Source: Clytia hemisphaerica (taxonomy: Eukaryota; Cnidaria; Hydrozoa; Leptothecata; Clytiidae). From it: a stretch of DNA of 64,000 nucleotides. The stretch lies in the NCBI GenBank assembly GCA_902728285.1, contig CACVBU010000758.1, positions 1,178,001 through 1,242,000 on the forward strand, given 5' to 3'. Numbering within the stretch: position 1 is the stretch's first letter; the number at the start of each line of letters is the position of its first letter. Under the pieces are notes generated by a model. It was given only the letters and a program-made list of their open reading frames with translations, was not told the origin of the DNA and searched no databases. Both the position numbers and the translations under genes were made by a program. This document shows positions 2,416 to 52,917 of this stretch, one piece after another.

Positions 2416-2455
2416 ATTAACGTAAGCAAAAACGTCAATCGAATTTCAATCAACC

Positions 2456-4003: not shown

Positions 4004-4004
4004 A

Positions 4005-13245: not shown

Positions 13246-13571
13246 GGGAGTTTCTAAACATCGATCAGAAATGGCGACCACGACCGGCGTCCAGATAAAG
13301 TTGGATTATCAAGTATTTCCTCTTTCTCCACCGTAGAGTCTTTCTCTTATGATCATTTATTTATCGAGTTGAGAAGTAAAGCTCGCCCCTGTCTCACCTA
13401 CAGTGATTATAAAGCCACGTGCAAAACGTGAAGAGCTGCCATTTCAACGCTCTTGGCAGTCTTGGAGCTTGAATAGAGTGTCAATTTCGAGAAAGAGGAA
13501 AAACTTGATAATCCAACTTTATCTGGTCGCCGGTCATGGTCGCCATTTCTGGTCGATGTTTAGAAACTCCC
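13246..13571. mobile_element. Mutator-like MITE with about 80-bp inverted repeats
   Basis: The left end GGGAGTTTCTAAACATCGA and its complement ending 13571 continue as matching arms for about 80 bp (AATGGCGACCA and AAAGTTGGATTATCAAG in the left arm). The perfect 9-bp repeat ATTAAAAAG flanks it (13237-13245 and 13572-13580). Nine-base duplications with long inverted repeats are characteristic of MULEs. The 160-bp interior has no reading frame. Confidence 0.8.
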
Positions 13572-14636
13572 ATTAAAAAGTCATAATTTGTAATAGTTGT
13601 CAAATTTCTTTTTCTCAAAAAATCAGTATGAAAAAGCATAATTACTATTTGCCATCAAATTTTTAAAAAAAGTAAAAAAACTGAAATAACCTAATGAAAA
13701 GGGAAACGTTATATCGAAGCCCCTTGTGAAAATAATGTAATTTATAATGATTTCCTAACGTACAATATGGGAACAAATTGTGTATATTCAAAAAAAATAA
13801 GTGTTTCATTATTTTTCTTTCTTTTCAAGGTTAAAATTGACGCACATTTTTTTCAGAGGAAGAACAAAAAATAATTTTTAAAAACATCAAATATTCTTAG
13901 AACTATATAAAAGTTAGGGTGAAAAAAAAAATTGATTTTCCTTTATCATCAATTTAATTATTACAACGAATTTTTCAACTGAACATTTGCGTGGAATATG
14001 AGAAAAAAAAAATATTTTTGCGAATATGAACAAAAGAACTTCCTCTTTTTCCACTAACTTACTAACCAGACCACTACTGAAGCATCCATTATTTTCCCTA
14101 TCTCTTGTTAATTTGTAGATTTTCATGAAAAATAGATCTTTTTTGAATTTCTAAATTTAATCTGATTCAACACAGAGTGAAAACAGACATAGGGATATCT
14201 TTTTCATAAGGAAATAGACTCGTCAATTTTACGGCGAAAAATGTCGTCTTTCACGGTGAGAACCTCTTACAAATCTTTAAAAAGTGGTTCAGTTCATTCT
14301 CAAGAATCTAGAAATTCATGAAATTCGAATATCGTAGAATAAAAGTTCGAAGAGATCTGCTCTATTTTTGAACATTTAATATTCTAACAAAAAGCCTGTG
14401 CTTTAGGAGCAACTTCCAATTCTATTTGAAGAAAGAAGGTTGCGTGGGATGTTCGTTGTCAAAAGTCGAGGGTTGAAACGTTCGTATCATTATAATATTG
14501 TTGATGAACCTAATAAATAATTTTACACGAAAAACAAAAAAAATAAACAAAAAGCGCAAAAAAATTATGAAAGAACTGTACATTATTGTGAATAGGAGAA
14601 ACAGAAGAAAAATGTTGAAGAACGAAAACGAAGACG
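13572..14636. other. AT-rich spacer 3' of ACSBG
   Basis: I see no gene, RNA or transposon signature in this AT-rich stretch beyond short A and T runs. It lies just downstream of the ACSBG stop codon. Confidence 0.4.
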
Positions 14637-14642
14637 TTTATT
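14637..14642 (-). terminator. Candidate poly(A) signal AATAAA for ACSBG
   Basis: On the minus strand AATAAA shares one base with the TAA stop (GGATAAATAAACG). If used, the 3' UTR would be only tens of bases long. No other clear AATAAA follows closely. Confidence 0.45.
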
Positions 14643-20600: not shown

Positions 20601-23600
20601 AGGGGCTATCTATTTCTCTGTCTTCCTTTTGTAAGTAGTATATGTTCGTAAGTAAAATTAGTTTCCTAAATTATAAAGAAAAATAAATAAATACCGTAAT
20701 ACCGGTCAGTTCTCCGTCGAAGACACCGATAAACCAGTTAATAACTGGTTCTCAGAAGCCCCCTAATATGTGTTGTAAGAAAAAATAGACTACACTCAAT
20801 AATAACATTGGTAACGAAATGAAGCTATTCTATTGGTTGATTTTGAAGATGACGTCAATTCTAGCCAATACAATGGCTAGCCTTACCTTGAGAGCATCAG
20901 GTTTAGCAAACCATACGACAGCACCGGCTCGTATAGGGATCCAAACATCTGTCATTTGAGCAGCAATGTGTGAAAGTGGAAGATAACTTATACACGTTTC
21001 TTGAACGTTGGAATTGACGTTGATAGCGGGGTGTAATTGTTCAATCACTCCTTCGGTAGCGATGATAATCTATAATAGATATGCAGAAATTTTTTAGAGT
21101 AAAAAATGAAACAGCCTAATTCGACTTATATCTTTTCTCGATATTTGACTTGAGATTTTATGCCAGTTTTTCTTTAAAGAAATCAAAAATCTTTGGGGAT
21201 ATTGTTAAGAGAGAAGGTTCAAACATACCACAGTAAATTGATAGTGGGTTAGAGGAGCTCCTGGCTGGGATGAACAAATCAGAAGTGATAGACCCTCACA
21301 CTTTAGTACGAAATGATCCATTATGTTGACATTTTTAGACAAGGTGACTGGTCTCAGTGAATGATAAGGAATGAGAAAGACTTTTTAAAATAATGGCTTA
21401 CATTATCGTGGGACATCATGACACCTTTGGGATTTCCTGTAGTTCCAGACTGAAATGGAAAAGTTCAACATCTTGAAAGTTCAGCCTTTTTGTGCAATAA
21501 AGGTTGCAATCAAATAAAGTCTCAAATTGAGTCTTTCTAAATAGTTCTGTCAGAATAAACTCTGGTTTGTAAAGATCCTATTTAAAAGGTAATCATGAAG
21601 AAAACATTTTCGTCTTACTGTTTACTTGAGGCAGGCCCCTCAGCTGGCACACAACGTTGTTTCAACGTTCATCTAACGTTAAATGGACGTTGTGAACGTT
21701 GCACGTTAGATAAACGTTGAAACAATGTTGTGTGTCAGCTGGGGTAGTAACTGTTGGCATCAGGAGATAATCCTTTTTTATCTAAATACAATCTAAAGAC
21801 CCCAAATTGAAAAATTTCCTCCCTCGAACCAAACCACGGTTAGCCAACGTTGTATGCCTACCTGCTCAACTCCAATTTCAATTTCAGAAGGGCCTACAAG
21901 ACTGTATCAAAATATTTGAAACACGTACCGTATAGATGAGTGTACAGCATCTATTTGGTGATTGCATATTGATGCGTTTGTTGAGTTCGTCTTCATTCTC
22001 TTTGCGACCAATCTCCATAAATTCGTTCCACTGGAAGAAGAGAAGAGAAAATTGCATGAATATCACAATAAAAAACAAAATAAACTTTGAAAAACTTTAG
22101 GGAGTTTATGTATTTACATTTCCGAGGAAAGCGATGTGACTGAAGCGATTTGAAATAACCCGCAATATGCTAAAACATCAGTAGATCAAAATACTTGCCC
22201 AAAAATCATTAATTTTAATATAGTAAGTAGTAAGTGTATTCATCTGGTGGCTGTCGGCAAAGCCGGGAGTGAGGAAGCCTATCCCATTTTCTATTTGCGC
22301 TAGACCTGGGTGGAGCGCCACGCCTACTCTCAGTTCCCACCCAGTAGCTCCTAGATCAGATTAAACAATATAATCTACTCACTTCGCTGAGTTTGCAATG
22401 ACCTGGAATCGATTCCTCAACCCTTGGATTGTAAGGCGAATGCTCTACCGACTTTATAAACACCTACCCAAAGAATCTTTAAGTAAAGCAGAATACTGTC
22501 AAAACTCACCGAGTAGATGTTATCTCTCTTTTCGCTGACTTCACCAAGGTATTGAACAACAGCTTTCAATGCCGGCAGTTGGTCCCATACCTACACGAAG
22601 AAAGGGTTAAAAGTGTTATGAAAACACTTCCTTTTAAAGTATACAATCGAAATCATGTCAAAGCAACTGGATCAAGTTAAGTCTCCAGGCTATTTCAGAA
22701 GTATAAAATCAAGAGAAAAAGTGCAGAATATTTTGAAAACCAAAGTCTTTGATTTGAGCACATTTTGAGTCAATTTGAAGTGTAATCATCATAGAGACAA
22801 GGCGATCGTTCGAATACCAACTATAAAACTATCAGGTTTGCTAGGTTTTGGAGGGATATTTACTCACTTGTAGAATTTTTTGTAGTTGGACGTCATTCTC
22901 GACGACAACAATATTACAATTGGCATCACTGCAAACGTATTGACAAGCTTCTGGGTTGTTGGTTGTGTAAACACCTGTCGCTAAACCACTGTGAAGAAGA
23001 ATAATACACTAATTAAAAGAGATATATTTGGTAGAAACCAAAGCCTGCCAGTTTCTGAGCGTAGCTATAAATGAGCTGTATTCTTGAATTTATTACCCAT
23101 TTCTAAATGTTTGCTAGTACATTTTCTTTTCGAATAATCAACGTTATCTTTAACTACACACATACACAAGGATACGCTTGCTACACAGTTTGCCATAAAG
23201 CCCACACAAAGTTTTACTTTGTGACTCTGTTATTGAGAGAGTCATCATTTAAGCGCAAGTTTACAGATTTCTAATTTAGTGAAGAAATTTTAAAAAAAAT
23301 TGAAACTTTAAAATTTTTTCATTGGAAACATCCCTCCAGAACTTCCTTCTGTTTCAAAATTCAAACAATTGGTCACTTGAAATACACTACTACAGTTGGA
23401 CGTTCTTCTATCCGATATGTTCAATTAATCGATAATTTTGAAAAACCGTCACGAAGTAACTCTCATAAACGACGCTCTACTATTCGATACGCTCCATTAT
23501 TCGATAATATTGAGCCACCGTCAACCAGAAACTCTCATAAACGACACTATTCGATACTCTCCCTTATTCGATGAAAATCCAATTCCCCTTGAAATTTGAA

Positions 23601-26600
23601 GAGAGTAATAGTGGATAAATAAACCTCCACTAAACCTTGGAATTCTACGATGGCGATAAAGATAAAGGATCTTACCCTGCGTAGATGGCACCGAGATCGG
23701 AGAAAAGCCATTCAGGAGAATTGAAACCAATGATACCAACTCCGTTATAAGGTTCGAGACCAAGCTGAAAAAAATGAAAAAAAGTTGGGAATAGGCGAGA
23801 CAATATGCAAAGCTAATATCTTTGTTTGAGATGGAAAAATTAGCTTAGCTATTTTGTTGAATTTCGCTAGCTTTTTAATGCCAATAAAAGTCTCAAAAGA
23901 GCCCTGAGCCCAAACCACAGGAAGAACCCAAGAAAGAAGAACCGGAAGACTACTACACCAAAAAGCGGGATGGTAGCATTATGTAGGATGAAATTATTTT
24001 TTATACGATTGTGTCGTTCCTCTGACCGTTTTTTTTTTCATACAGCACTCGAGAAAAATGTCGGAGCAAGAACGAAATATTTTTAATCGGTGAAACAAGA
24101 TTCAAAATTAGGCTAAAAGAAAACAGTTCTGAAATAAGGTATTTTATATTTTACCATATTTATCTTAGTTATAATCGTAATGCAATGGTTGAAATTAGTT
24201 CTAATTGCATGCAACGGCTTTTAAATATGTGGTCGTCCCAATTATTTCAATAATTTTCGAAATATGACAACAAGAAAATCGACTTTCTATTCATCTCTAT
24301 TAAGAGGCAAAAGTAAATTGGAATGCGGATTTTGAAAGTGCAAAAGAATAGGGTATTATAATTAACAACTCTTTATACTTCTAGTAATTTTCTTTAACAA
24401 CGTGCAATTAAAAATATAATAATCTGGATTAAAATTAAATTAATTTCGATTTAGTTGCAGCCCTTGAAACGAAGGGGAAAAAGTCATTTCAAACATGAAA
24501 CCTAAGTAAGCGAGGTAATCTGAAACATCGGTGTAGACCCAGTATACTATCACTTAAATGTCTTCTCAACTCGAACAAGTTTTCCCGTCCCTTCAGTTAA
24601 AAATGCATTATAAATCCCATAACTCGAAATTTCCTTAACTCTAACAATATTTTTAAGCCCATTGTAGAAAGTCAGGATTTAATTTTTTTCATTGACGGCG
24701 ACGGCGGAAGATATTTCCATTCAGTTTTATGGAGACAAGCTCGAGAAATAAAATCTGATAAGTACAACAAAAGAGAAATACCTCTTTAAGTAAAATAAAA
24801 CATTGGAGATGAGGGTTTACTGGAGATTAAAAAAGCGTATTGATATAATACGTGTGCGATAACAGGATAACACACAATATCTGATAAACCTTATTACTGT
24901 ATGAACATTGTTGTCATTTTAATTGATTTCTTTCTTTTGCATTACTCATACTATCATTGGTACGAAGTTCTCTTTGGAGAGAAATTCTCCTTTGAGCGTC
25001 AATAAAGTTGTTAAATCTACGTTAAATCATACACAAATTTTAACTGTGTATAAAATCAATTCTTCTGTGCGAGAAGGTTCCTCGTTGTCGTCTCGACTTA
25101 CCCTTATCAAGAATGCTAACAGAACAATTACCCCCCAAGATAATTGCCCCCGGACAATTGCCCCCGACAATTACCTCCCCAGACAATTGCCCCCAGGACA
25201 ATTACCACTGATAAAAATGTCCCCCTGGACAATTACCCCCAGACAATCCCCCCCTACCCCCCAGACAAATGTCCCCCAGGACAATTACCCCCAGGACATT
25301 GAATTAAAAGAAAATGAAATGGCATACCTTTATGAAACCCTTCGCTGCCGTTTTTATTTCTTCAAAGTATTCTTTATACGTCCATGAAATCCATTTCCCA
25401 TCACGCTCAACCTTCATCGCCACTCGGGTTCCGTAACTTTTGACGGCTTGGTCCATAAATTCTTCAACAGAAATAGCCGGACGGTTAGTGATGTGTCCTT
25501 CTCTACCGGAAAATTGGATTTTGTATGAACCATCCCGCTTTGTGGTATAGTAGTCTTCGGCGTCGGCTAGCGTGCACGCAATACCGTTCGCCTTTGGTGC
25601 AACAACGGCCGGTTCTTCTTTCTTGGGTTCTTCCTGAGGTTCGGGTTCAGGCTCTTTTGAGACTTCGGGCTCAACTGGCACCTCAACCTATAATGCGAGT
25701 AAATGATATGTAAATATACATAATAATTAATACTGCATTATCATGATATCGTAGCAAGCAAAGTCTGTAATCGCAGTCAGAGGTGACCCGGAGGCTCCTC
25801 TTTTAATAGTTATTTACCTGAAGGTATGGGAAGGGGCCACTCTGAGCATTAAGCAGAGAGGCATCAAGTGCCAATATTATACTAAGTACGAAGTTATTTG
25901 GTATTGTGATAATATATCATATGTTTTCATGCGTTTATCGTCATATCTTACTTATGGTCTACAATACCAAAAATGCAGGGAAGCCAACAATAAACTCGAC
26001 GAGACAATAATCTAAACTCAATTTTGGAAAAAGTTGGACAAAAGGAAATATCGTAACTGATAGTTGTTGAATACTTAGAAAAGATTTTAAACTGCACCTT
26101 AACATCCTCGCTGGCGACTGGCTCAGGTTCTGGCGTTTTTTCAGCTTCGGGAGCGGGTGTTTCCGGTTTGGGGGCGGGCGTTTCCGGTTCAGGGGCGGGT
26201 GTTTCCGGTTCAGGGGCGGGTGTTTCTGGTTCAGGTTCAGCGGCTGGTGTACTGTTGTCTCCTCCACCAACTTTGATGACAACCTAGAGAATGGAGGGTT
26301 GGGTTGTGTAAGATCCAATGATCAATGCATTATTAAGCAAAGATAAACTTGTGTTTAAAATTCCGCTTAGTTTTAGAATTCTGATAATCTTTTTTGGGTC
26401 TCGAAGAACAAAACATCTTTCACCAAACAAATGATTTGAGTCTTACTGAGTAGTCTGTAGTACTAAAAGACAGACCTTTTACTAAAATTTGCTTGCTGAA
26501 ATGGTTGCCGTTCGTTATACTACAAAAAGGAACAACCAAATAATACCTCCTCTGTTGACGTAGTAACAGTTTCTTCGGTACCGGCAGCTTGTCCTTCAGC

Positions 26601-26729
26601 ACCTTCCGTTACCACAATAGTTTCTGTGATAACTTCGGTTGTCACGGTAACGGCATTTCCACTTTCGTCGACAGTCTGTTCAGTGCTGATTTCACTGGTA
26701 GTTGATACAACGTTATTTTCGTCAGCCAT
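14642..26729 (-). CDS. ACSBG: Long-chain fatty acyl-CoA ligase, bubblegum family (19 exons)
   Basis: The enzyme activates long and very-long-chain fatty acids to acyl-CoA through an acyl-AMP. Exons (minus): 26547-26729, 26098-26283, 25328-25687, 23676-23764, 22868-22988, 22510-22590, 21929-22030, 21402-21449, 20887-21069, 20186-20244, 19540-19662, 18833-18881, 17958-18203, 16995-17111, 16415-16448, 15714-15853, 15406-15597, 14963-15017, 14642-14718. All have GT-AG borders; the phases agree and give 814 residues. Landmarks are the family start DYYTTKRDGSYKIQF, IGFNSPEWLF, the AMP-binding P-loop SGTTGNPKGVM (375-385, exon 8), YLPLSHIAAQM, YGMSETAG (567-574), TGDVG (641-645), TGRIK (656-660) and ITAGGENIAPVPIE. 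It ends FYSG, close to the vertebrate end. The first 145 or so residues are an extra acidic, Pro/Glu/Thr-rich tail absent from the roughly 670-720-residue vertebrate forms. No signal peptide is seen. Exon 15 is a 34-bp microexon. Confidence 0.96.
15614..15670. repeat. ATTC microsatellite in ACSBG intron 16
   Basis: A run of CATT/ATTC units is interrupted by TTCCTTG. It sits between exons 16 and 17. Confidence 0.8.
16072..16318. mobile_element. Harbinger-like MITE in ACSBG intron 15
   Basis: GACCATGTTCACACGTTAC at the left and GTAACGTCTGAACATGGTC at the right pair, followed by TTCCG/CGGAA. TAA flanks both ends (16069-16071 and 16319-16321). A 3-bp TWA duplication suggests PIF/Harbinger. The interior is rich in CGTTTCG words. 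No coding capacity. Confidence 0.75.
16605..16970. repeat. Direct repeat of about 60 bp in ACSBG intron 14
   Basis: The word string starting TTGAGAAAAAAACTCATCTG near 16611 recurs near 16918, each followed by ACTTTAATTACTT and an AAGGGT. The second copy ends about 25 bp before the exon 14 donor. Confidence 0.7.
17085..17414. repeat. 55-bp x 6 tandem repeat spanning the exon 14 acceptor of ACSBG
   Basis: Six 55-bp units start at 17085, 17140, 17195, 17250, 17305 and 17360. On the minus strand each carries 27 bp identical or nearly so to the start of exon 14 (LCFRGRMNF) plus 28 bp of intron ending CTTGTCTTTTCAG. The array therefore holds six copies of the 3' splice site. Only the unit at 17085 joins the rest of exon 14. 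Use of any upstream copy would read into TGA in the intron part (AAT TAT TGA). Confidence 0.95.
17728..17948. mobile_element. MITE 9 bp from the exon 13 donor of ACSBG
   Basis: CTCTAGTTTAGACGGCC at the left and GGCCGTCTAAACTAGAG at the right pair, with a further matching arm (TGCCCTGCCTATTCTAATTG and complement). The element ends only nine bases inside the intron, just after the GTATG donor. The target duplication is ambiguous, TA at best. Confidence 0.75.
18315..18618. mobile_element. MITE, AAGCCCGAAGGGCTAGA family, in ACSBG intron 12
   Basis: CATTGAGTTT plus AAGCCCGAAGGGCTAGAGGCG at the left pairs with CGCCTCTAGCCCTTCAAGC plus GAAACTCAATG at the right. A second, inner palindrome GGATGGGAAAT...ATTTCCCATCC lies at 18547-18578. 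Relatives occur at 40945-41217 and, as a single end, near 28600-28648. Confidence 0.7.
18968..19133. repeat. Two-copy direct repeat in ACSBG intron 11
   Basis: CCCTGGTCTGGAAT...TTATTGTAACGTTTT...GTTCATAACGATTATAAAAATC occurs at about 18970 and 19062. It is followed by a GATCACGTTA / TAACACGTGATC inverted pair (19140-19215). Confidence 0.7.
19670..19903 (-). mobile_element. tRNA-derived SINE abutting the exon 11 acceptor of ACSBG
   Basis: On the minus strand the 5' end looks like a tRNA. The A box is TAGCTCGATCGG (plus-strand 19882-19893), and the B box GGTTCGATCCC (19844-19854) follows at the normal spacing. The body and a TAAGTA-type 3' tail match the second copy at 22229-22457. The tail ends about eight bases before exon 11, so it supplies most of the pyrimidine tract of that acceptor. 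It is unlikely to be a functional tRNA gene: the head runs straight into a shared non-tRNA body. Confidence 0.85.
20370..20762. mobile_element. Decayed MITE with GGGGCTTC ends in ACSBG intron 9
   Basis: GGGGCTTCCGAGGTT at the left matches the complement of AACTGGTTCTCAGAAGCCCC at the right. ATACCGG/CCGGTAT words recur inside. No clear target duplication. Confidence 0.5.
21636..21744. mobile_element. 109-bp fold-back MITE with AACGTT words, ACSBG intron 7
   Basis: CCCCTCAGCTGGCACACAAC at the left pairs with GTTGTGTGTCAGCTGGGG at the right, and the arms continue through TTGTTTCAACGTT to the centre. This is a near-complete palindrome. Confidence 0.75.
22229..22457 (-). mobile_element. tRNA-derived SINE, second copy, ACSBG intron 6
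   Basis: The body shares CAGATGAATA(C/T)ACTTACT and GGTCTAGCGCAAATAGAA (minus strand) with the copy at 19670-19903. The B box has decayed (GGAATCGATTCC) and the A box region is partly lost, so it is an older copy. Confidence 0.75.
23386..23575. repeat. Degenerate tandem repeat of about 72 bp, ACSBG intron 4 side
   Basis: ACTCTCATAAACGAC occurs at about 23459 and 23530, with TATTCGAT(A) words after each and a weaker first unit at 23386. A distant relative (GTTGACGCTCTTTAATTCGA) lies at 26868 upstream of ACSBG. Confidence 0.6.
23890..23977 (+). pseudogene. Antisense partial copy of ACSBG exon 3 inside intron 3
   Basis: The plus strand reads GTCTCAAAAGAGCC..., matching exon 3 sense sequence through CAGGAAGAACCCAAGAAAGA to the Pro codon of KKEEP. 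It then jumps 51 bp (17 codons, AVVAPKANG to LADA) and resumes GAAGACTACTA...AAGCGGGATGGT (EDYYT-KRDG). Several substitutions and a frameshift are present. It is the opposite way round to the gene and has no splice sites of its own, so I read it as an inverted exon fragment. Confidence 0.85.
25122..25303. repeat. C-rich minisatellite next to the exon 3 donor of ACSBG
   Basis: About ten imperfect units of the type GACAATTGCCCCC or GGACAATTACCCCCA, with spacing near 15 bp. It starts about 25 bp into intron 3 of the gene. Confidence 0.8.
26130..26250 (-). repeat. Coding 21-bp minisatellite in ACSBG exon 2
   Basis: Four to five in-frame 21-bp units encode PEPETPA repeats within the acidic N-terminal extension. 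One unit reads PKPETPA. Confidence 0.9.
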
Positions 26730-28659
26730 TTTGTTTATTTTTTATCAGTATTTCCTACTACTGTAGCTCTATGGAATAAAGGTTAAAATCACTTGAAATG
26801 ATACAGTTTACATATAAAAAAGCCGATTCAAACAAAGTCAGAGAGGAGGCTCATACTAACAACAGTTGACGCTCTTTAATTCGACGTTCTCTAATCGATA
26901 CGCGGTCAGATTTCCATACTAGAGGAATATGAAATATCGTTAATATTTCGATGCTCTCGACCAATCAAAACGTGAGGGTTTGGTCGTTCTTTTTGTCGCT
27001 TTGTAATAGGTATTTGTCATTCATTTTAGATGGTCTGGACACATTACATGAACAGTCTCTTAGGTTCAATCTGAGCTTTCATTCATTATATCTAGTTTAA
27101 TATCTTAGTGTTTCAGTGGGATACAGTAAATCTCCTTTGCTAAGATAAACAAAATCTGGATTAAATAAGAAGGTCTAGACGAGGATTCAAAAACTGAATG
27201 GACCTTGACACAGTGTTAACATGTGCAAAGTACATAAAACAAGAATAAAAAATATCCAGGATTTCTAATACACGTTTTTTATAAGAACATAAGGCTTCGA
27301 TGGCCAAAATGTTAAGAACAAGTTTATGAAACAGTGTTAACATGTGCAAAGTAAACAAGAATAAGAAATAGCCAGGCTTTCTAATAACTCACCTCACTCC
27401 GAACTTTAGCTTAGAAGTTCAACAGAATGGGATATGGTCGTGAAGGCTAGAGACGAATCTCCTATGCACGGTTTAGAAGCCACTAACTAATTTCCTAGTT
27501 GCACAGTTCACGTCTTTTTCACACAAGCGCTTGGTTGAAAGTAAGATTAACCGCAAAAATAAAGAAACGATATCTACAAATATCAAAGCATAAATTTTGT
27601 TTGCCTGAGAAAGGTTGAAAATTCACATCTAGCCTTTGACTTTATTTCATTGCATTGGTATTGAGGCCCGCTATTATCGTCAGCGAGATAGAAAGAAAAG
27701 TTTTTAGAATTCTCTCAGCTACCCCACTCTCACAGAAATCAAATCTCAAAAAGTTTGTAAACGGGTCCCAGTCGCTTACGAGAATTAGTCTGCTAAATAA
27801 GACTAGTAATCCAGAAAACATTTCGCAAATATCCATTTTGAAAAAGCTGCACCTCATGCATCATTATCGTTTTAATAAATGAGGTTTCTCCAGTTGACAG
27901 ATACCATTCATCGCCGTAATAATAAATGGTTGAACGCAAATATCCGCTTATATAAAAACGCGACCAAAACTGCACGCCCACTTTTGGCAACCAAAATTTT
28001 CGTTAAGAAAACACAAGAAAAGAGGATATCAAAAAGTCAAATAAAAACCATTTCTATCATCCAAATGATATTATATATACACGAAAGCTCCAAAGGTTAA
28101 TATGAAAAAAAAGTAAAAAGCAAACATATTGGCAAAGAAGTGATACATTTTCAACAAGTTTCAGATTTCTTCCGTTAAATATTTACCTTGTATTTTCTTT
28201 TCATGTGTTTGTTTTTGAAGAGGGTATCATCACTTGAACAAGTCTCATGTTAATAATTATCAAGAGTGGACCCCTTGAAAAACAATAATCAGTGGAAATT
28301 CTCAGGAGACTGCGTGAGAGAGTAAAGACAGACAGGCAGACAGACAGAGTTTCGAAATCAACTCATGTCTCAAACTCAAACTTCTTTTTTCTCTACTAAT
28401 AATTCAAAAGACCTAATTTATCCAACCAAATTCAATATGTAAAGGAAGAAGAATGTTGACTTGAAAAATTTACACATACCAAAGTAAACAAATTTTATGG
28501 AATGCAACATTGAGCCGCGTTAGAATAAATTAGAAAGCACTAGATTCAATCCATCGTAAGTATGCCGCGCAAATCTTAAAACTTCACTTTTTCTTGCTTG
28601 AGAAGGGTTGAAGATTCCTCTCTAGCCCTTCGGACTTTAAAAACTCGATGATCTAAATA
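26730..28659. other. 5' flank of ACSBG, no further gene seen
   Basis: A CTACAG acceptor-like site about 35 bp before the ATG suggests a 5' UTR intron. A 60-bp direct repeat (27210-27270 and 27331-27387) brackets a fragment of the TA-flanked MITE family described at 28660 (27271-27325), as if the host site was duplicated around it. A GACA/GGCA microsatellite is at 28325-28350. A CGACCAATCAAAACGTG word near 26957 resembles words in the element at 18-2154. Confidence 0.4.
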
Positions 28660-28909
28660 CACGTGTTTTTATAAGAACAAACTATATTATAAGAACATTT
28701 AAAGAACATTTGATGGCAAAAATCTTAAGAACAAGTTAAGAACATTTTAAGGCTGAATCTAAAACACCCAATTTCTTAGGAAAATGGACAAAAATATTCA
28801 AAAGATGGTGAAAATAAGAATATGTTAAGAACATTTTTAGGCTAAAACCCGAAAAGTTAAGAACATCTGAAGGTTTCAAAATATTGGATGTTCTTATAAA
28901 AAAAACGTG
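28660..28909. mobile_element. TA-flanked MITE (CACGTTTTTTATAAGAAC family), copy 1
   Basis: CACGTGTTTTTATAAGAACA at the left and TGTTCTTATAAAAAAAACGTG at the right, with TA on both sides. The interior repeats TTAAGAACAT words. TA duplication suggests a Tc1/mariner-type mobiliser. A full relative is at 36169-36397 and a truncated one at 27272. Confidence 0.7.
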
Positions 28910-31900
28910 TACAACGAAGGAAAGATCAAAGTCGAATTCAATTTCACCGTACTTTGTACTGCGTGGTATTCATTACCATTGAGTTTAATAAATTCTTGTG
29001 CGTCTGCCCGCATCCATTGAACATACCAATAAAGATACCAATAACGACTTCGTATTAAGAAAAAAGAAGCAATAGTTTGACCAATCAAGCAGAAAGAACA
29101 CGCAAAATGGACATAAAAAAAACGAAGGAAAATACAAATACGGTAATAGGAACAGAGCTTATTCAGAGCAGAAAATTGGCATTCAGTCCACTCCAGTACA
29201 AAGTATGTAGTGGTAACAAAACGAACATATTTTTATCTCGAGAATACAAAGTGTAGTTGTAAAGAATGACAAGAATAATACACATCGATCAATCGATACC
29301 TATCTCGTACATTTTATAATTAATTTGTAAGACTTATTTACAGGCCAATTATAACCAACATTTTTGTAATATTTTTTCAGGTAGCTAAAGGTCAAGTAAT
29401 TTTGTGTATGTTATTGTAATTTACATGATCGAAAGCATGACTTACTCGCAAAACATGCCACTAACACAAACCAAAATCAATTTATTTCTCTCCGTTTATC
29501 AAGTCAAACACGAAACACTCCCATCCGAGACAAAGAAAAATTACAAGTCGTTTGCCAAAAGCTAACAGAGTTCAAAACAGCATGAAACCCATGTGAGTTT
29601 TATATCAACATCATTTTCGTGCAATAACCACGTCAAACAACTACAATATAATTGAGAAAGAGAGATGTATATAAGCTATAAAAAGTCTATAATTACTTTT
29701 GACAATCAGCCTTGCAGAGTCATCAAGATACGTATCACAAAATGCTTAATAATTCCGCTTAATTAAAATACTTGCTTGTATATTAGTAAGAATCTTCAAC
29801 AAACTGATGGTAAACGCTTACCAGGGACGCACATGTAGCAAAATATTGTATTAGCTTCAAATTATAAATCAAAATTGTAAACTGTTTTCTGAAACTTGCT
29901 TTTATATGGGATGGCTTGTGTTGGAAGTATTGCTAGAAGATAAATCACACACAATCAATTTTATGTACAGAAAAAACTATTCTCCAAGAACAAGACGATC
30001 ATTTTAGTTCTTATAAAAATGTCATTAGAAGCATCCACGTGCATATAAAACATTCCATCGGACGCAGGATTATGAGATAGATTATGCAAGATTTTCATTA
30101 AGAATAATTGAGAATAATCTTGCAAGTCAATTGTCCACTTAACTAAGTCTGGTCTTGGGGATTAAATAGTTGATTAATTGGGAACTAAATTCGCCATGTT
30201 AGATTCCTCGTGAATTTCGGAACGTATACACATTCAAAAATCATAATATTTTGTCAGTCGATAATGAAAACACTGTGCCATGAAAACATACTGTCTGTAA
30301 AACTTGAGACCAACTGGAAAGAGAAATTTATAAGGAAATAAGAATCATGGATACGAACCAGTTTTCTTCAAGCCTTGGTACAATGTAGACCACCTAACAA
30401 GCCAGCTCAGTGACAAATATATACCAATTTGACGAGTCCGTCATATAACAAGAAAAAGTTTAGTTCTTTCTCGGCTTGTTTCAACGGAGAAGTTGCGTGG
30501 GTCCCAAAGTAAACTTTTTTGCAAAAGTGGTCTCTGTCTCACAAAATTTCGCTTGTTTACTATTTTAACAATAAAGACAGTTTGACGTAAACAATTGTTG
30601 ACAAAATGACATAACCTCTTGAAGCATACATGCCACGAAACCCACAAAAATAACATGAGACATTATTTTGCATCGTCAGCTGATTAGCAAATAAGTTGCT
30701 GCCAAGTAAACGAAATTGTAAAAGCTTCCTCCTTGAGGAGTAAAATCTAGTGATGGGCAAATTATCTCCTGTCTTTAAAAAATGATGAAAATTAATCATA
30801 AAACCAACAACTAGCAAGGAGAAGAACTATAGATAACAAAAACATGGACTTTTTTGCAGACCATGCTATATTGAAACTTATGTACGACAACTTTTAACAG
30901 ACCAAATCAAACCATAAAAACTATTATTCTCCCCAATTAGATAACGGTTTAAGGTGTTTTGAGGGTGTAAAAAGTGGAAAATTTTCTTCGTCGCCAAACC
31001 ATGGTGGGCGACATTTTTTTCCAAAATATAGGGCCCCACTCAAAATGGTTCTCCAGGGCTCATGAAAGAGCAATAACTTCCAAACACACTAGCCAGCTCA
31101 ATTATCATGATATACAAGAACTTAGCAAAAGTAGATTTCTAAAGAGTGAAAACCAAAAGAAAGTGACCATAAAAAATAGTGAACTTTTACAACAATTTGA
31201 AATGGATAATAATCAACTGACACTTTCCATTGATTCCATCAGAAACGTTATCAATTTGCTTTCCCCTGTTTACAGAAATCACATCAAATGGTGTATATAT
31301 CTTTATGTACACGTCACATCAATATTCATCATTAGAAAAGCATAGTAGTTGGCTATCTAAACAAATTCATGAATCTCAAAATTTCAAAATCGTGAAATAT
31401 ACAGAGTCTTTTAGACAAACATAAAAGACAAACGTGTTTTTACTTGTTAGAAACCTTAGCATGGATTGACTTTCCAAATACCGTTTCTCGACATATGAAA
31501 TCCAACCTTGAAATACACACTTTTCTAAAGCATCTAAGACTCGAATCAGCCAAATATTCTCACTGTCTTACAAAAGGAAAATCTTACAAAAGATAACTAT
31601 GGAAAAAGATGGTCCTTTACGATGGATTAATATTAAGTAAGGTTATAGTCCACACAATCTAATTTCTTAAAATCTGAACGCCTCTAGCGCATAATTGACT
31701 GGATAGTCTGTTTAAGGTATGAGCACACGTTAAATTAGAACACTTCCCCTCAAGGAGTTTGTTCGTCTTTTTCGATTCGAGAAATTAAAAACACAGAGTA
31801 TCCGACATGAGAGTGAAATAATTCAACATTACAAAATCAACACAAACGAAAGCAGACGAAGAGAATTTTACTCCACTCCTCAAGTGTAAAGATAAGGATC

Positions 31901-44222: not shown

Positions 44223-45408
44223 TAAGTAACCCCAAAGTTCTATTTGAAACACTAATTTTTAGCATAAAAGAACCACTTTATATACTGTGCTATTTGCCCA
44301 AATTAGTTTTTGCCAAAATTAAAAATTGCATTTCTCTTCAAAACCACATTTATAAAAAATTCTATTTTATTTAGCTCCTTGCCAAAATAAGTTCTCTCCA
44401 AAGTAATTGTATTCCCCAAATTCTTATTTTTTCGCAATTTTTGCCTCTTGCTGATTTCACCATTTTATCTCCAATTGTCCCTTTTCGTTAAATAATTGTT
44501 TTTCAGTGAAGTGAAAGTAACAAAGATCAAGCATTTTCAATTTTAATTGTTACACAGTGCATAAAGTGTCCATCAATATTTTCTTTCTTATTATTTAAAC
44601 CAGTTAAACATCATAACAGTGGCCAAATGTTTAAAATTAACTTCAACTGACACTGATGACTGAGCAATGCATTTAGTTATTTAGCATCCTGGAAAACCAG
44701 GGCTAACAAATAGTGCAATCTCTCAGAGTTTTTATAGCTCATGCTTATTCCAATCAGCCAATTAGTCACAAAAGCAAGATGCAATGATGATGTTGAGGAC
44801 ATGATACTTTTCATGTTTTTACCTTTACACACAAAAACATTATGTTGTTGTACAAAAATCTGATTGAATTCATCCTACTGCTACTGTCACTGTCGTTCAT
44901 CGTTCCCAGCTGTGGTGACATGATATGGGTGGACAATTGGAGTTTACGTTCTTGAGGCTGGATATAAAAATTATATCGGCTACTTTTTGGATGAGCAGCA
45001 TCAGCAGAGTCAGCAGCAAAGCATTAGAGCTGTTGAAAATGTTTTGTTTATTTTTCACATAATCTAAAAGTGAGAAAGAAAGCAATAATTTCAAGGTTGA
45101 AATTTCTTTAGATTTGCTGAGTGTGTTTACACCAACCCTAAAACTTCACCACAAAAAAATATCCATATCAGAGAGCCAAATTTAAAAAACAGTAATTGGA
45201 AGTTGAGACTTATTGCAAGGGTACTAATTTATTTTGAGCCAGTAAAAAAACATTAAAAGACAGAGGAAAGCCATTCTCTATTCCAAACAGCAAACACAGT
45301 CATTTTCTACTTGCATTTCCCTTCCAAATGTCCAAATCAACTTAGTAAGTGTGCTCGCAGCTCGGCTGTACTTGTCTTCGCAACATATTGCCCACACTCA
45401 AGCTGCCA
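44223..45408. other. Intergenic stretch
   Basis: No gene or repeat boundary that I can support. Confidence 0.4.
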
Positions 45409-45699
45409 GAGTCCTATCAGGGGGGATCGGGTTCAATAATCCGAAATGATAAGCCTTCGTCGAACATAGAGGTCGTCGTCGCCGCGCATAGAGGCCGTGG
45501 TCGGACATAGAGGTCGTCGCCGGACATAGAGGTCGTGGTCGGATATAGAAGTCGTCGTCGTTCATAGAGGTCTCAGCCCAATTTTTTTCGGTCTTTATTT
45601 TATAAGTTCTGGTCTGGAAATTTGACAACACAGTCTTCAAAATAACACCTTATCGTATTTGTGTATAGCAAAGTCACGGCAGAACGTCGTCTTCTTCGA

Positions 45700-45985
45700 T
45701 AACATAGAGGTCTTGGCCGGACATAGAGGTCGTCGTCGAACATAGAGGTCTTGGCTGGACATAGAGGTCGTCGTCGAACATAGAGGTCTTGGCCGGACAT
45801 AGAGGTCTTGGCCGGACATAGAGGTCGTCGTCGAACATAGAGGTCTTGGCCGGACATAGAGGTCTTGGCCGGACATAGAGGTCGTCGTCGAACATAGAGG
45901 TCTTGGCCGGACATAGAGGTCGTCGTCGAACATAGAGGTCTTGGCCGGACATAGGGACATAGAGGTCGTCGTCGAACATAGAATT
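45700..45985. repeat. 19-bp minisatellite, left arm
   Basis: Two unit types, A (ACATAGAGGTCTTGGCCGG) and B (ACATAGAGGTCGTCGTCGA). From the outer side inward the order is A B A' B A A B A A B A B A B, where A' has CTGG for CCGG. Because 19 is not a multiple of 3 and no unit contains a stop, all three minus-strand frames stay open and encode the same 19-residue repeat. The open frames here are therefore artefacts of the repeat. Confidence 0.95.
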
Positions 45986-46684
45986 CGCCGGGGCGGTTCG
46001 CATCAACGAAGGCGGTTTATCTGGCGGGGTGGTTTTTGCGAAGCGAATATACATGAGCGAAGCAGTTTTGCTATCGTGTGCATGTACCTTTAAATTCTAT
46101 ATACCAGGGGAGCACCAAGGTAAACTTGATGTGCGTTTTCTACGGTACCGAAAACATCATTTCGATCCATCAGTTTGCTAATATTGAAAACTGAAAATCA
46201 TTTTTTCCTTTTAAGATTGCGTATATGCCTTAAGGGAAGAAATTTCTTTGTAAATCAACTTATTGGTAAGCCCAGGAAAAACAGCGGATTAATCTCTCTA
46301 GAAAAATACTTGCGGTACACATTTTTTATAAGCAACTGGGTTGCTAAGGGCTCAGGCCTCAAATCCTCAAATCCAAATTAGCAACTTTTTTTCCTCAGCA
46401 ATAAAAAAAACTCGGGCACAATTTTAGAAGAGAGCCTTGCAAACATTCGAAAGATGCCTTTACTGTCCATTTAAATTGAAAAATTGTCGAAAAATTCAAA
46501 ATTGTGCTTTTCAACTATTTTAAGTTTGAAAATCTTTTGCCCTCCTGGATTTCGAAAAATCCTTAGCGAAAAATGGAATTGCTTTTTAAAAAAATTTGTA
46601 GACTAGGAGCTATTGACGCAAACGCCATTTTGACCAAAATTTCAAAATAACAAAAAAACTTTTTAGAGTTGAAAACGAAGTAGC

Positions 46685-46779
46685 CAAGCAAGCTCGACGC
46701 TCGCTTGCTTCTTACTTCGCGCTCGATGGCAATTTCAAGACATCGAGTAAGAAGCATTAGCGAGCGTCGAGCTTGCTTG
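46685..46779. repeat. Hairpin inside the fold-back element
   Basis: CAAGCAAGCTCGACGCTCGC at the left pairs with GCGAGCGTCGAGCTTGCTTG at the right, with further pairing of CTTACT/AGTAAG around a short loop. Confidence 0.8.
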
Positions 46780-47007
46780 ACTAAAAACGAAGCGAAGAAC
46801 CAACAGAAATGCCTACAATGACTTATATTGAGAAAAAAAATCATCACCCCATTCATTGATCATTGATTAATTTCCAAAACATCTGAAATCTTCCAGACGA
46901 CTTTAGAGTCTGGCTGGGCAGAATAAAAATCAGAATGGCCACTTATCTGCGTCATCCAGTCTATCAAAAAGCTCTAAGTGACCTCCAGGCTAATGATCCC
47001 GTTGTTC

Positions 47008-47297
47008 GACGGCGACTTCTATGTCCGGCCAAGACCTCTATGTTCGACGACGACCTCTATGTCCGGCCAAGACCTCTATGTTCGACGACGACCTCTATGT
47101 CCGGCCAAGACCTCTATGTCCGGCCAAGACCTCTATGTTCGACGACGACCTCTATGTCCGGCCAAGACCTCTATGTCCGGCCAAGACCTCTATGTCCGGC
47201 CAAGACCTCTATGTTCGACGACGACCTCTATGTCCAGCCAAGACCTCTATGTTCGACGACGACCTCTATGTCCGGCCAAGACCTCTATGTTATCGAA
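47008..47297. repeat. 19-bp minisatellite, right arm
   Basis: The same A and B units as the left arm, inverted. From the outer side inward: A B A' B A A A B A A B A B A and a diverged B. The variant A' is again third, and the array differs from the left only by one extra A (and the diverged inner unit). A plus-strand open frame starting MATYLRHPVYQKALSDL at 46935 runs into the array. It is probably fortuitous. Confidence 0.95.
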
Positions 47298-47583
47298 GAA
47301 GACGACGTTCTGCCGTGACTTTGCTATACACAAATACGATAAGGTGTTATTTTGAAGACTGTGTTGTCAAATTTCCAGACCAGAACTTATAAAATAAAGA
47401 CCGAAAAAAATTGGGCTGAGACCTCTATGAACGACGACGACTTCTATGTCCGGCCACGACCTCTATGTCCGGCGACGACCTCTATGTCCGACCACGGCCT
47501 CTATGCGCGGCGACGACGACCTCTATGTTCGACGACGGCTTATCATTTCGGATTATTGAACCCGATCCCCCCTGATAGAGTCC

Positions 47584-48830
47584 AAAGGTCGAAAAATATC
47601 AAGATTCTTGATATTTTCTCTTCTAAAGTACCAGGGCCCTAAACGATTCCTCCAATTATACGGTACTGGCCTCTTTAAGTCGTAGAATCGTTTATCGGCC
47701 CTGGGCTCGCGAGGGTGCACATATATTCCAAACAGACATTTCACAGACAAGATTTTGAAACCCAGACTACGGTATTGGTTTGCTACCACCTTAATACCAC
47801 CGCATTAACATTATAAACTCCTCTGGGAATAACCAAATCAGTATTGTGAAAACCAGGTACACGATGCTAATGAGGTAATTTATGAGAAGGTCTATTGAAA
47901 AAAGGGCAAAGATAGTTTACACATAATAGAAAGCCCAGGCTTTTAGAGGCCTTACTCTTAAAAAGTTAAGTAGGAGTTTTACACTCGAAACGAAGGAAGA
48001 TATGGCGTAGCCTAATTAGGGCAAAGATTTCAGACAAATTGTCGCTAGGCTGCTGGTATCCACTAATGGATTCGTGCTTCGAGCTCCTACAGTACAATCA
48101 TGGATAAAATATTCATTGCAGAGGGAATTTCTTTGCAAAGTTTTAATACACCAACGCAAAGTTTTAAAATGAGACTTTGAAGACCTTATTGGGATCTCGG
48201 GATTTATGAATGCTCAAAATTTGTCCAACAAGGCTGTGAATATAGCCTGGAACCACTCCGAAATCGAAATAAAACGAATGAAATAAAAATGAATTTATAC
48301 TAAAATCGCAATTCTGGCGCGAATTTTAGAGTGTACATAAATATCTATATATTTCAACTATTATTGTACCAGCGAATTTTGTAGAGTTCCTGCGATTCGG
48401 ATGAAGCTGAAACAAAATTTAAAAGATAACAAATAGAGTTGTATGTTTTCAATTTTCTTTTCAATTCAAAAACTGATGCCGCATATTTGACGTCGAAATT
48501 GTTTCTGTAAATAATGTTAAGCTACTGATAAAAAACACGAGTTAACCAAAAAAAATACTAATTCAATGAAACTAGATTTTCTACTTTCAAGTACCGAATG
48601 ATCTAGGGAAACATGCCCTTAAATGTTCTTCTCATATATGTTCTGTTGGTAAAAGTCGCACCAAATCCGTCCAAAAACTTGTCAAATTTCTTTATTCAAA
48701 AATTTATTCAAACCTCCGGTAAGCTAAGCCAGAATCGTGAAAATTCAGAACTACTATTGAAACTTATATTTTTGAATTTACGAATTTACGCCTAATTCAA
48801 AATGCCACCGTTAGCAAAAATGGAACAATC
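47584..48830. other. Intergenic stretch 3' of PSMC3
   Basis: A single end of the MITE family at 53080 (GAGGTAATTTATGAGAAGGT then CTATT, 47874-47898) is the only repeat recognised. No gene seen. Confidence 0.4.
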
Positions 48831-48856: not shown

Positions 48857-51800
48857 TTAAGCGTAATATTGAAGATTGTTTTTCTTTTTGGATTGGACCT
48901 CCATGATACCGTCCATATAATCTTCATGTTGAAGTTCTGTAGCTTCCCTTCTCAACGCAATCATACCGGCTTCCACACATACAGCTTTCAGTTGTGCTCC
49001 GTTAAAATCTTCCGTACAACGCGCCAACTCTTCGAAATTGACCTGAAGAGATTAAGAGATTAAGTTAAAGGATATCAATTCACGTATTCTCTACCGTTTG
49101 TCAAGTCTAGATACTCATGTTAAATTAAGGGCTCTGACCATAGTGAATTTTTAATATTTGCCACGTACAAAATATAAATTTCTACTTAATGTAGCATACA
49201 AAACTGTGGCATGTTATACATTTTCTTTTAGGCCAATTTATCCTTGAGTCTGAAAATTTAAGAATCGCAATGAAAAAATTAGACGAAGAAGAAAATGAAG
49301 ACTTTTGCGAAGAAGAGTATTTCAACTATGAAGAGCATTTTCGGCGAAGAAAAAACTTTTTGAATTTTTTTTTGCGGTAGATGGTGTATATTTTTTCATA
49401 GAAAAACAGCCATAACTTCTGATGCATTAATTTAGAAAAATTTTCCGAAAAATTTGAAACAGTTCAATTCTTCGCGGACAGTTTAATAAAACTTCAAAAC
49501 AAAAAGGTTAATTACCCATTAAAACTTTTAGCACTTTTTTATAAAAGAAGGCAATGCAACATATTATTAACGTCTTTTTAAAGTTCACAGCGTCATTTTT
49601 GCAATTAAATTCTTAATTACTCTTAAGGGATTTGATTTAAAAGCAATTTGTAAAGGCAATTCTTTGTTAAAAGTGTTAAAGAACCTAAACATAACTTTTA
49701 TGTTCAAATACTAAAATCAATTTTTCGACTATGGTCAAAGCCCTTAAACAGAAAGATATCAAAACAATGAAATTCTGACGTAAGAACCATGTAAGAACCC
49801 GCTTAAAGAAACCAGATACTCCCGTCATTTAGATTGAACTTTTCGAATGCTAAGCAATCCACGTCCTGCAACTCCAGAATCTCAGGGAAATTCTCTCATT
49901 AAGAAGGTTTTAACGAGAAAAAATTTCCTTGTAAATTCATTACCAGTCCCCTGAAAAGCGGACCGCGTCGATAAAGGTGTATCAGAGTTCAAAAGTACAT
50001 ACGTTAGAGCTGAAATTCATTTTTCTGGAATGGATTTGCAAAATACGAGCACGTGCTTCCTCCGTAGGATTGGGGAATTCGATCTTTCTATCTAAACGTC
50101 CGGATCGAAGTAAAGCTGGATCCAAGATGTCCACACGATTGGTTGCTGCGATAACCTGAAATATTTTTCAAAATTTTTGCCATAAATGCTGATTCAGAAA
50201 AAATAATTTGTATATAAATGTAATTTTCCGTTGCAAACTATGTCATGTCGGCAGCAAAAGAATTCCACAGCTTTTATCTACTACCCATCTTGAGAATTTT
50301 TAGTTTTTTAATGTCAATTTATGGGCCCGAGAATGCTCATTCAAATTCTCACCTGGATTTTGGGATATGTTCTTAGGAATTATAGAAAGCTTCCTATACT
50401 CCTTCTTCATAACTTAATTTCGACGTCTAAGGAGTTAAAGAGAGTTCTATGCAATTTTTGGCAGATTTAGATGAACAATTTTTCATATAGAAGATTAGGC
50501 TACTTCCAAAATGTTTCAGACAACCAAAAACATGTTTTTCTTAAAGAAGAAATACTAACCAACCAAAGTAATCAAAAATCGCCCCATTTCGACTCATCTA
50601 CAGGTTTCAATTGTCATTTGAATCAAACAAAACCTACTATTGGGGGTCCCTTACGTTTGGGGGATATATACCGCAGTGCTTATATCTAAAACACTAATGA
50701 ATGCGAAAAGGTGCAGCGTATTTTACCATTTTATCACCCAAAACTACCCAAACTTGGGTGATTGACACTTTTCCCTTTCTGTCTTATAAATAAAAAAAAA
50801 AACGCAAAAATCATCTTACTTTAATTTGTGATGTAGAGCTGAACCCATCTAATTGATTCAACAGCTCCAACATAGTACGTTGAACTTCACGGTCGCCAGC
50901 TTTCTCGCTGTCGAAACGTTTTGTACCGATAGCATCCAATTCGTCAATAAAGATGATAGCTGGAAGCTTCTCTTTGGCAAGTGCGAATGCATCTCTCACC
51001 AATTTCGCACCATCTCCGATAAACATTTGTACAAGTTGTGGACCAGCCAATTTCAAGAACGTAGCTTTTGTTTGGGCGGCACACGCCCTTGCTAGTAGAG
51101 TTTTTCCGGTACCAGGCGGGCCAAACAGAAGAACACCTTTGGGTGGTGCAACACCTGAATTGAACAGAACATAGACAGATTTTTTTCTAAGATAAATATT
51201 TGATGCAGAAATTAAACAATACATTTTCATTGAACATAATGTTAAGTGTACATAATTTCCCCTGACTAAAATTTCCCTTGTCAATTTGAACCAGATGCGG
51301 ACACAAGTTTTGGTTTTTAAGTTGCTATCCAGACAATAATAAATCTCTACAACAATATACCGGATAAGGTACGATCTCAAAATTTTCTGAGGAGACTTTG
51401 AGAAGATGTGTCCATATTGAACAGGGTGTTCGTATTGAACAGGGTGTTCATATTGAACAGGGTGTTCGTTCAAATTATACAATTTTTTTCAAACAATAAA
51501 AGAATAGTATGATTACCATGAGAACATTTTAAACAGAATAAATACCTAGACGTTCGAATCGTTCTTGATGCGTCATTGGGAGGACGATAGCTTCGATCAG
51601 TTCTTGAATTTGTGTATCTAGCCCACCGATGTCACTGTATTGTTCAGTCGGCCTCTCATCAACCTCCATAGCTGAAAAAGAAAAAATTCGGACGCTGGTA
51701 AAGAGTTTATTTACAAAAAAAGTGTTCTCTGAACAACCAATGATTTACCATATATAAATTTTTAAAAGGTTCAATGACTAAGGGGGTCATTTGTAAGGAA

Positions 51801-52800
51801 AGTGTGTTGGATAGAAAGAAGAGAAGGAGCATATTAAGATAAAGAGATGAATGGATGGAAACTCATAGAATCAGTTCACCTAATATAAACGTCATTTCAC
51901 TGTGGTGTTGAAAAGAATAGGAATTTGAGACTAATAATGATTCTCTAATAAATTAATGGCCAGAGGCCATTTGTAATGCCCTAGTAATCATGATATGATG
52001 CAGTGATTTTTAAATGAGCTGATTCTTTTAGGATTTCTATTACTAAACCACTGGTGCATAGAATGCAGAGGGGTCCAACTCCCAGCATTTTTCAGGAGGG
52101 GGGGGGGGGGGCTAAGGAACATAGCCCCCGGCGAAATTTTAAAAATGTAACCCCCTTCCTCACAAAGCAAAATATCGAAGAAATTTAGCTTGCATTACTG
52201 TTATATCAGCTCTGTCTCCAGTTCCATTACTCGACACTCAACTCCCTAGCCAGCTAGCCCCCAGAAAATAATACAGCGCTCAATCAAGCAAAAATGGTTT
52301 AGCCCCCTAAGCTCAGGGGGAATGCATGCAATGTGTTGACCCACAAAAGAATTTTGATAGTTTTTGACGTCTCGAGGTATAGGGAATATCCTAAATTTTA
52401 TGGAGTTTTTAAAATACATTTTAACTTAAAATATGGGGTGATACTTTTCAAATTTTCCATACAAATAGGATTTTAAGGTTAGATTTTACTTTTCTAAAGA
52501 GTTCTCATGGTGTTGGGTACACAGCTCAAGTTTACACGAGTCAATGCCTCATAACGGGCGATAAAGATTCTTTTAACACGTCCAAAACTGGAAAATAATA
52601 AGAATTGACTATAAGAGAATGAGTGGTTTGCCTACCTTTGACACGAGCATCATATTCTGAGGGTAATGTTTCCAAGATCAAATATGAATCTTTATTAACA
52701 CCAACCAGATCGCCAGGTTTCAGGTTTTCCGCATCAACTAGACCAATAACCGGTAGAAAGTAGGTTTGTCTTGTAGAAGTCTTCACTACTGCACACTTAC
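48857..52800 (-). CDS. PSMC3: 26S proteasome regulatory subunit 6A (Rpt5) AAA+ ATPase, N-terminal exons missing
   Basis: This is one of six ATPases of the proteasome base ring, which unfold and translocate ubiquitinated proteins in cytosol and nucleus. Exons (minus): 52636-52800, 51546-51671, 50820-51154, 50003-50155, 48857-49042. All have GT-AG borders with agreeing phases, giving about 321 residues out of some 420-440. The OB-fold end reads [19 protein letters not shown]. Next come [18 protein letters not shown], Walker [10 protein letters not shown], the pore-loop segment [15 protein letters not shown], Walker [34 protein letters not shown], the Arg-finger segment [14 protein letters not shown], and the C-terminal QYYA (the HbYX motif that docks into the 20S alpha ring). 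The first exon listed starts in phase 2 (G|GT AAG), so at least one exon precedes it. The coiled-coil N terminus was not found between 52.9 and 64 kb. Confidence 0.95.
51409..51474. repeat. 18-bp x 3 tandem repeat in a PSMC3 intron
   Basis: ATTGAACAGGGTGTTCGT-type units, three copies, in the intron between the second and third exons listed. Confidence 0.8.
52085..52335. repeat. G/C-run repeat fragment in a PSMC3 intron
   Basis: A run of about 14 G at 52099, then GGCTAAGGAACATAGCCCCC, and two more AGCCCCC words near 52257 and 52303. It resembles the interior edges of the element at 53956-54553. Boundaries unclear. Confidence 0.4.
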
Positions 52801-52855
52801 CTAGAAAAAAAAATGATGATATTGTCAGAAAATTTTGAAAAATGTTTTGGCATAC

Positions 52856-52917
52856 CTTTAGGTAACTGACGTAATTTTAGTACTGGGTTCAGGATTTTTT
52901 TTATTGAAAGGGAAGTA
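52856..52917 (-). other. Possible upstream PSMC3 exon
   Basis: On the minus strand TTATTTCTAG precedes a 62-bp open stretch ending LRQLPKG with a GTATGC donor. Its phase joins exactly to the next exon to give [14 protein letters not shown] (RKGKCAVIKTSTRQ in vertebrates). The donor, phase and Lys-Gly fit. The rest ([13 protein letters not shown]) does not resemble the conserved DLDSQR region, so the 5' boundary is doubtful. Confidence 0.4.

Follow-up and report, generated by a model that had tools for sequence, protein, structure and literature searches.

The window, by which is meant the whole 64,000-nt stretch of Clytia hemisphaerica DNA analysed here (contig CACVBU010000758.1, positions 1,178,001 to 1,242,000 of the forward strand), contains at 45415-47577 an insertion of 2,163 bp whose minisatellite arms mirror each other, with the hexamer GAGTCC on either side (Table 1). 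The inverted arms (45414-45954 and 47038-47578) are 541 nt long and 95% complementary. The outer part of the left arm begins with the tip TATCAGGGGGGATCGGGTTCAATAATCC, continues with a block of degenerate 19-bp units (45457-45572) and ends in a non-repeated spacer of 128 bp, and an 8-bp interruption lies near the inner end of the left array, before its last units. The inner ends of the two arms are unlike in type and are designated X on the left and Y on the right. All reading frames of at least 110 amino acids that touch the core extend into the arrays, and scans of the window for tRNA genes and Rfam families gave no matches.

Table 1. Features of the foldback element and its target site, in window coordinates
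Feature	Position	Strand	Basis or remark
Target-site duplication, left, GAGTCC	45409..45414	.	exact; empty sites elsewhere
Left (X) arm, outer part, 286 bp	45415..45700	+	98-100% in 40 full-length genome matches
Left minisatellite array, 19-bp units A and B	45701..45981	+	tandem-repeat finding and unit decoding
Core	45982..47002	.	similarity to long elements C753 and C371
Small internal hairpin in core, 25-nt arms, 53-nt loop	46681..46783	.	
Right minisatellite array, 19-bp units	47003..47291	-	
Right (Y) arm, outer part	47292..47577	-	98.95% identity to left outer part
Target-site duplication, right, GAGTCC	47578..47583	.	exact

Elsewhere in the window, 2426-5959 is occupied by a retroelement whose reverse-transcriptase frame matches RVT_1 at 5e-17; by eye it looks DIRS-like, and at 4133-4451 it contains a tandem duplication of 158 bp that is perfect. 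A 55-bp tandem repeat of 6.1 copies with 98% matches is found at 17084-17416. Approximately 3.2 kb from the foldback element, two exons of a proteasomal AAA ATPase lie on the minus strand at 50811-52873 (AAA, 6e-30; Prot_ATP_ID_OB_C, 2e-12), which we take to be Rpt5/PSMC3.

Decoding of the minisatellites from the outer side gives the unit order ABaBAABAABABA(8)Bb for the left array and ABaBAAABAABABAb for the right, where the point variant ACATAGAGGTCTTGGCTGG, present at unit 3 of each, is written as lower-case a. The initial description of a fold-back element with A and B units in mirrored order therefore holds, given the 541-nt inverted arms, the 19-bp arrays in both of them and the decoded orders. 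The third-unit variant is likewise common to both arms as described; it is not private to the window, since it occurs in three further arms and again at unit 3 in one of them (L044). The claim that the arms differ essentially by one A unit needs amending: the extra A is there, and to it must be added the interruption of the left array and the X and Y inner ends. After trimming of inner-end units the pair is 0.93 alike, the difference being that extra A, and when the order of the left units was shuffled, 10 of 20,000 trials attained 0.93. In a comparison of all arms with at least five decoded units, out of 47 scanned, the two window arms are mutual best matches and the next arm stands at 0.79. 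Arms so nearly identical might raise the suspicion that one is an assembly mirror of the other, a reading with next to no probability: the arms differ by substitutions, by one unit and by the 8-bp interruption, they adjoin different inner flanks, and inverted arms recur elsewhere: both ends were read for 18 further distinct insertions that have them, and an exact 6-bp duplication is present in 16.

The window element is inserted into a dispersed repeat, and other copies of that repeat lack it. A query joining the two flanks through a single GAGTCC matched unbroken over the junction, at 97-99% identity, in 40 places (40 of 191 first-look candidates were scored); these empty copies are other copies of the repeat and not the allelic site. 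That the element had been mobile as a 2.16-kb unit with a 6-bp duplication, as first proposed, is supported by the exact duplication and by these empty sites. The interrupted repeat lies on both sides of the element (45301-45414 and 47584-47703) and has at least 40 scored near-identical copies.

The genome searched was the assembly that contains the window (417 Mb, 951 contigs); below, L-numbers denote extracted regions and C-numbers contigs. The outer 286 bp of the arm gave 40 full-length matches at 98-100% identity (40 of 120 first-look candidates scored), and a 28-base tip pattern with up to three mismatches identified 94 termini, the reversed control pattern identifying none. By position, 35 pairs of tips face each other at distances of 1.36 to 18.9 kb; outer-arm matches, tips and facing pairs alike show many copies in the genome. 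The ends of the family are TATCAG..CTGATA, with a few tips changed within the first six bases. Some of the 94 tips are of a second, related type (GGTCAAAAATCC), and two of the facing pairs (C375, C912) belong to it. This second type (TATCAGGGGGGGTCGGGGTCAAAAATCC), present at C375:544996-547338, C912:54890-56247 and other places, marks a related family.

Detailed comparison was based on 25 extracted regions and the window, in which 20 two-armed elements were delimited, two of them (L032 and L035) being one insertion on two contigs; the remaining six extracted regions show either one end alone or two that point the same way. Together with the outer flanks of C371 and C338, the distinct two-armed elements make up 21 insertions, and a perfect 6-bp duplication flanks 19 of these, with five of six base pairs matching in the other two (L027, L031). 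Perfect duplications of 4, 5, 7, 8 or 9 bp were found in none of the 21. The count includes L042 as a perfect duplication, taking as the end the outermost TATCAGGG of a repeated tip (4367-4386; TATCAGGG followed by TATCAGGGGGGA); since the duplicated GTGGTG flanks the outermost tip, it was apparently this one that served in the insertion.

A transposase-bearing copy of the kind that the sequence-only reading had suggested looking for is present on C371, where a facing tip pair at 10975-29869 spans 18,895 bp within a GTTGTC duplication; on the left it ends in a family arm and on the right in a family tip, and a gene with an rva_4/rve core lies in between. The extracted region (L048) holds one frame with the motif WHID and one of 212 aa in which RSDKG and QRIERLW occur. 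For the catalytic exon (L048:2319-2954) the Pfam match to rva_4 has E 3e-67 and that to rve 3e-5, the latter below the curated cut-off, and the NCBIfam matches are weak (IS481, 0.0039; IS3, 0.027). The exon with the first D matches rva_4 at 3.7e-4, below cut-off; the second D aligned weakly to a solved integrase (E 0.033), and D and E were assigned by eye. On a second contig with family arms, C753, the region L034 holds an ORF that weakly resembles an HTH, 5.3 kb in from an arm end of X type. This HTH exon has two close copies in the genome, one in C753 and one at C371:26601-27149 (97%), in the same orientation; as regards an HHCC zinc motif before the core, absent from IS3EU/GingerRoot, the Pfam matches of this exon are HTH-like alone and below cut-off, and its NCBIfam matches are weak (IS3, 0.0038; an IS256 variant, 0.0084). 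The reading of the C371 element covers its sequence outside 17501-22449 and 26611-29865, and the HTH exon of C371 is a search match. The two contigs share stretches at 96.7-99.7% identity. No catalytic frame was found in the pieces of C753 that were read, and C753 is absent from the catalytic-exon matches (150 of 391 candidates scored); the C753 copy therefore looks internally deleted. From its sequence, the C371 transposase would be a candidate autonomous source for the family.

An alternative is that the C371 transposase is a passenger, belonging to a separate transposon nested within the foldback element, and that another enzyme moves the family. Among the scored candidates (150 of 391) the catalytic frame has a single genome match at 100% (C371:24768-25346), all others being at 67% or less, so a single copy with the catalytic exon was found; this, and the two stretches of C371 outside the portion read, leave room for a passenger. 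The closest relatives in the same scored set, at 63-67%, are on C77, C788, C261, C898, C332, C760 and C816, and six of the seven (all except C898) have no family-like tip nearby among the tips listed, which were portions of 160 and of 111 tips; because of this, the odds of the main reading developed below were lowered and those of a passenger raised. The passenger reading is nevertheless unlikely. The HTH exon occurs in C371 and C753 in the same orientation, the full list of 94 tips contains none with up to three mismatches inside C371:10975-29869, and two more distant transposase relatives, on C898 and C540, adjoin TATCAGGGGGG-type tips, 2.4 kb and 3.2 kb away, on the expected side and strand.

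The core of the window element has three segments: approximately 200 bp like the X side of C753, a stretch of 75 bp, and approximately 770 bp like the Y side of C371, at 90-95% identity. Composed in this way of X-side and Y-side pieces of long elements, the short element looks to have been derived from such an element by internal deletion. Type-2 short copies retain part of a SAP-domain ORF instead (L022:3944-4489).

Foldback arms with internal repeats are known from several systems. The Drosophila FB4/NOF elements have short-unit tandem arrays in their inverted arms, as here, and differ from the present family in termini, duplication length and transposase class. The FB4 duplication is 8-10 bp long; a duplication of that MULE-like length was not found here, where it is 6 bp. 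Galileo, of the P superfamily, generates 7-bp duplications and has a P-type transposase; its long, internally repetitive inverted arms, its deletion derivatives and a proposed exchange among its copies all resemble the present family (PMC3573991). By contrast, a perfect 7-bp duplication was seen in none of the 21 insertions, and the catalytic exon read in C371 is rva_4/rve and not P-type. For Tetris, a foldback element of Drosophila virilis, the report gives units of approximately 220 bp and duplications of 8-10 bp, a proposed assignment to Mutator and no autonomous copy found by its authors; its arms are made up of three domains, external flanking, tandem-repeat and inner, a likeness to the present family, which differs in having 19-bp units and 6-bp duplications (PMC4079207). 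That the window element is a classical foldback element of the FB4 (MULE-like) or Galileo (P) type is suggested by shared architecture, namely long inverted arms, internal tandem repeats, variable length and deletion derivatives. It is very improbable in view of the rve/rva_4 core in the long copy and of 6-bp duplications in 19 of 21 insertions, where Galileo has 7 bp (PMC3573991) and Tetris 8-10 bp (PMC4079207).

The family points instead to IS3EU/GingerRoot, an assignment inferred from termini, duplication length and transposase core. IS3EU elements have TA..TA termini and usually 6-bp duplications, and form one lineage with GingerRoot (PMC10045372); fungal IS3EU elements end in TAYGG..CCRTA and have 6-bp duplications (PMC12730594). 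The present family shares TA..TA termini (TATCAG..CTGATA), duplications of 6 bp (perfect in 19 of the 21 insertions), an rve-type DDE core with weak IS3/IS481 resemblance in C371 and, as a likeness to IS3EU, an HTH-like N-terminal part. The duplications of IS481EU, of approximately 4, 15 or 25 bp (PMC10045372), were not found here (6 bp). The present family differs from IS3EU, as described in the papers cited, in its long minisatellite foldback arms. The literature searched, a scope with most subscription journals and Repbase outside it, yielded no description of foldback arms in IS3EU and no fold-back element with a 6-bp target duplication. Of the resemblance to FB/Galileo elements that was noted at the outset, the foldback architecture stands; the kinship is replaced by the IS3EU/GingerRoot assignment, because duplication length, termini and transposase core differ.

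How the arms stay alike was addressed with the decoded arrays, which range across the family from 5 to 21 units. One explanation is that the copies descend recently from a few masters with arms that were already similar, in which case no conversion would be needed; this is a possible reading, although not the favoured one. It is consistent with the 98-100% likeness already present among the 40 scored outer arms and with the recurrence of the window's unit-3 variant at unit 3 in L044. It is also consistent with the test on all 18 decodable two-armed elements, in which left and right unit orders were not significantly more alike than between elements (p 0.12-0.13 for 19-mers; p 0.28-0.30 for A/B order), shuffled partners being already 0.49 (19-mers) to 0.70 (A/B) alike. 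Across 36 arms, moreover, the outer 286 bp holds 90 variant alleles, of which 82 are confined to one arm, and the arm pair of L044 differs at 25 positions there. Against young masters alone stand the window arms as mutual best matches, the comparison of X-type with Y-type arms (n=13, p 0.005-0.022), the first five outer units in that comparison (3.85 identical versus 3.29, p 0.00025, n=13), and L036, where a Y-type inner flank is present at both ends.

These tests are related and rest on one data set, and the p values are nominal. For the X/Y tests 14 of 20 elements qualified, 13 without L035; L031 and L042, with shortened left arms, were left out of the arm comparisons, L035 (the L032 insertion) was left out of permutations where stated, L026 was left out of the outer-286-bp comparison, and L027 was kept in the 18-element test though its left arm decodes to 5 units. 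The results given are those of a dynamic-programming decoder, an earlier decoder having broken off at interruptions. They are weaker overall than, and supersede, the earlier 19-mer results (p 0.0096, n=17; p 0.00015, n=11) and A/B results (p 0.23 and 0.0021). Rare unit variants common to both arms did not exceed chance (1 observed against 0.32 expected, p 0.23).

In the outer 286 bp, own partners differ at 4.00 positions and shuffled partners at 4.33 (p 0.0024, n=16), a small effect, and three of the 90 variants occur in both arms of a given insertion and in no other insertion (L036, L039 and the L032/L035 insertion). In L036 the second copy of the Y flank reaches approximately 165-171 bp into the core, and its sequence shows one arm copied together with that length of neighbouring core. 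Between the contig copies L032 and L035 the X arrays are the same, and the Y arrays have 10 and 9 units respectively. The array and outer-variant data together imply that arrays drift quickly and that one arm seems occasionally to be rewritten from the other; arm equality is occasional, not constant. The earlier idea that gene conversion keeps the arms equal thus survives in part, for the window pair, the three both-arm private variants and L036, and as a general rule is not supported by the 18-element test or the one-arm alleles. The proposed comparison of A/B order within and between copies likewise favours the window pair and is weak across the family (p 0.30 to 0.00025).

Taken together, the evidence makes the window element a likely non-autonomous copy, shortened by internal deletion, within a young family of cut-and-paste DNA transposons of foldback type. 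A C371-type transposase acting on the tips would move the short copies; the minisatellite arms would drift through unit gain and loss and would now and then be overwritten from the opposite arm, probably via repair within one element or its hairpin; and the window pair would represent a recent overwriting event or a young copy. A wider proposal, for and against which we judge the case evenly balanced, is that an IS3EU-type lineage independently evolved foldback anatomy, minisatellite arms being carried by the transposase-bearing copy and the deletion derivatives alike, and that within a single insertion the arms rewrite each other, the unit order being a readable record of conversion inside the element. 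If the assignment is true, one more superfamily joins those with reported foldback arms, beside P (Galileo) and Mutator (proposed, Tetris), and a foldback family gains a candidate transposase encoded in its own genome, which the Tetris study did not find for its element. Unit order, as in the one-unit difference between L032 and L035, offers a direct way to measure drift and rewriting of inverted arms.

Several other leads were followed among the copies. The SAP-domain ORF was rejected as a lead to an autonomous copy, as its longer-framed copies, at eight other places (C535, C254, C628, C898:312920, C374, C796, C261:776482 and C129), are, with one exception, without a nearby family tip among the tips listed; for the copy at C898:312920 the family tip C898:333188 is 20 kb off on the same strand. 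A 196-aa ORF beside the arm of L043 has no Pfam match, and no second arm was found within the 14 kb read there. A suggested HECT likeness of the ORF L038:5792-6280 found no support, there being no Pfam match up to E 1; part of this ORF recurs in C753. In L024, two arm ends in the same direction (1478 and 3123) are located close to a duplicated stretch of coding sequence, and a frame for a secretin-type receptor (7tm_2) follows downstream, an arrangement that is possibly a rearrangement or an assembly join.
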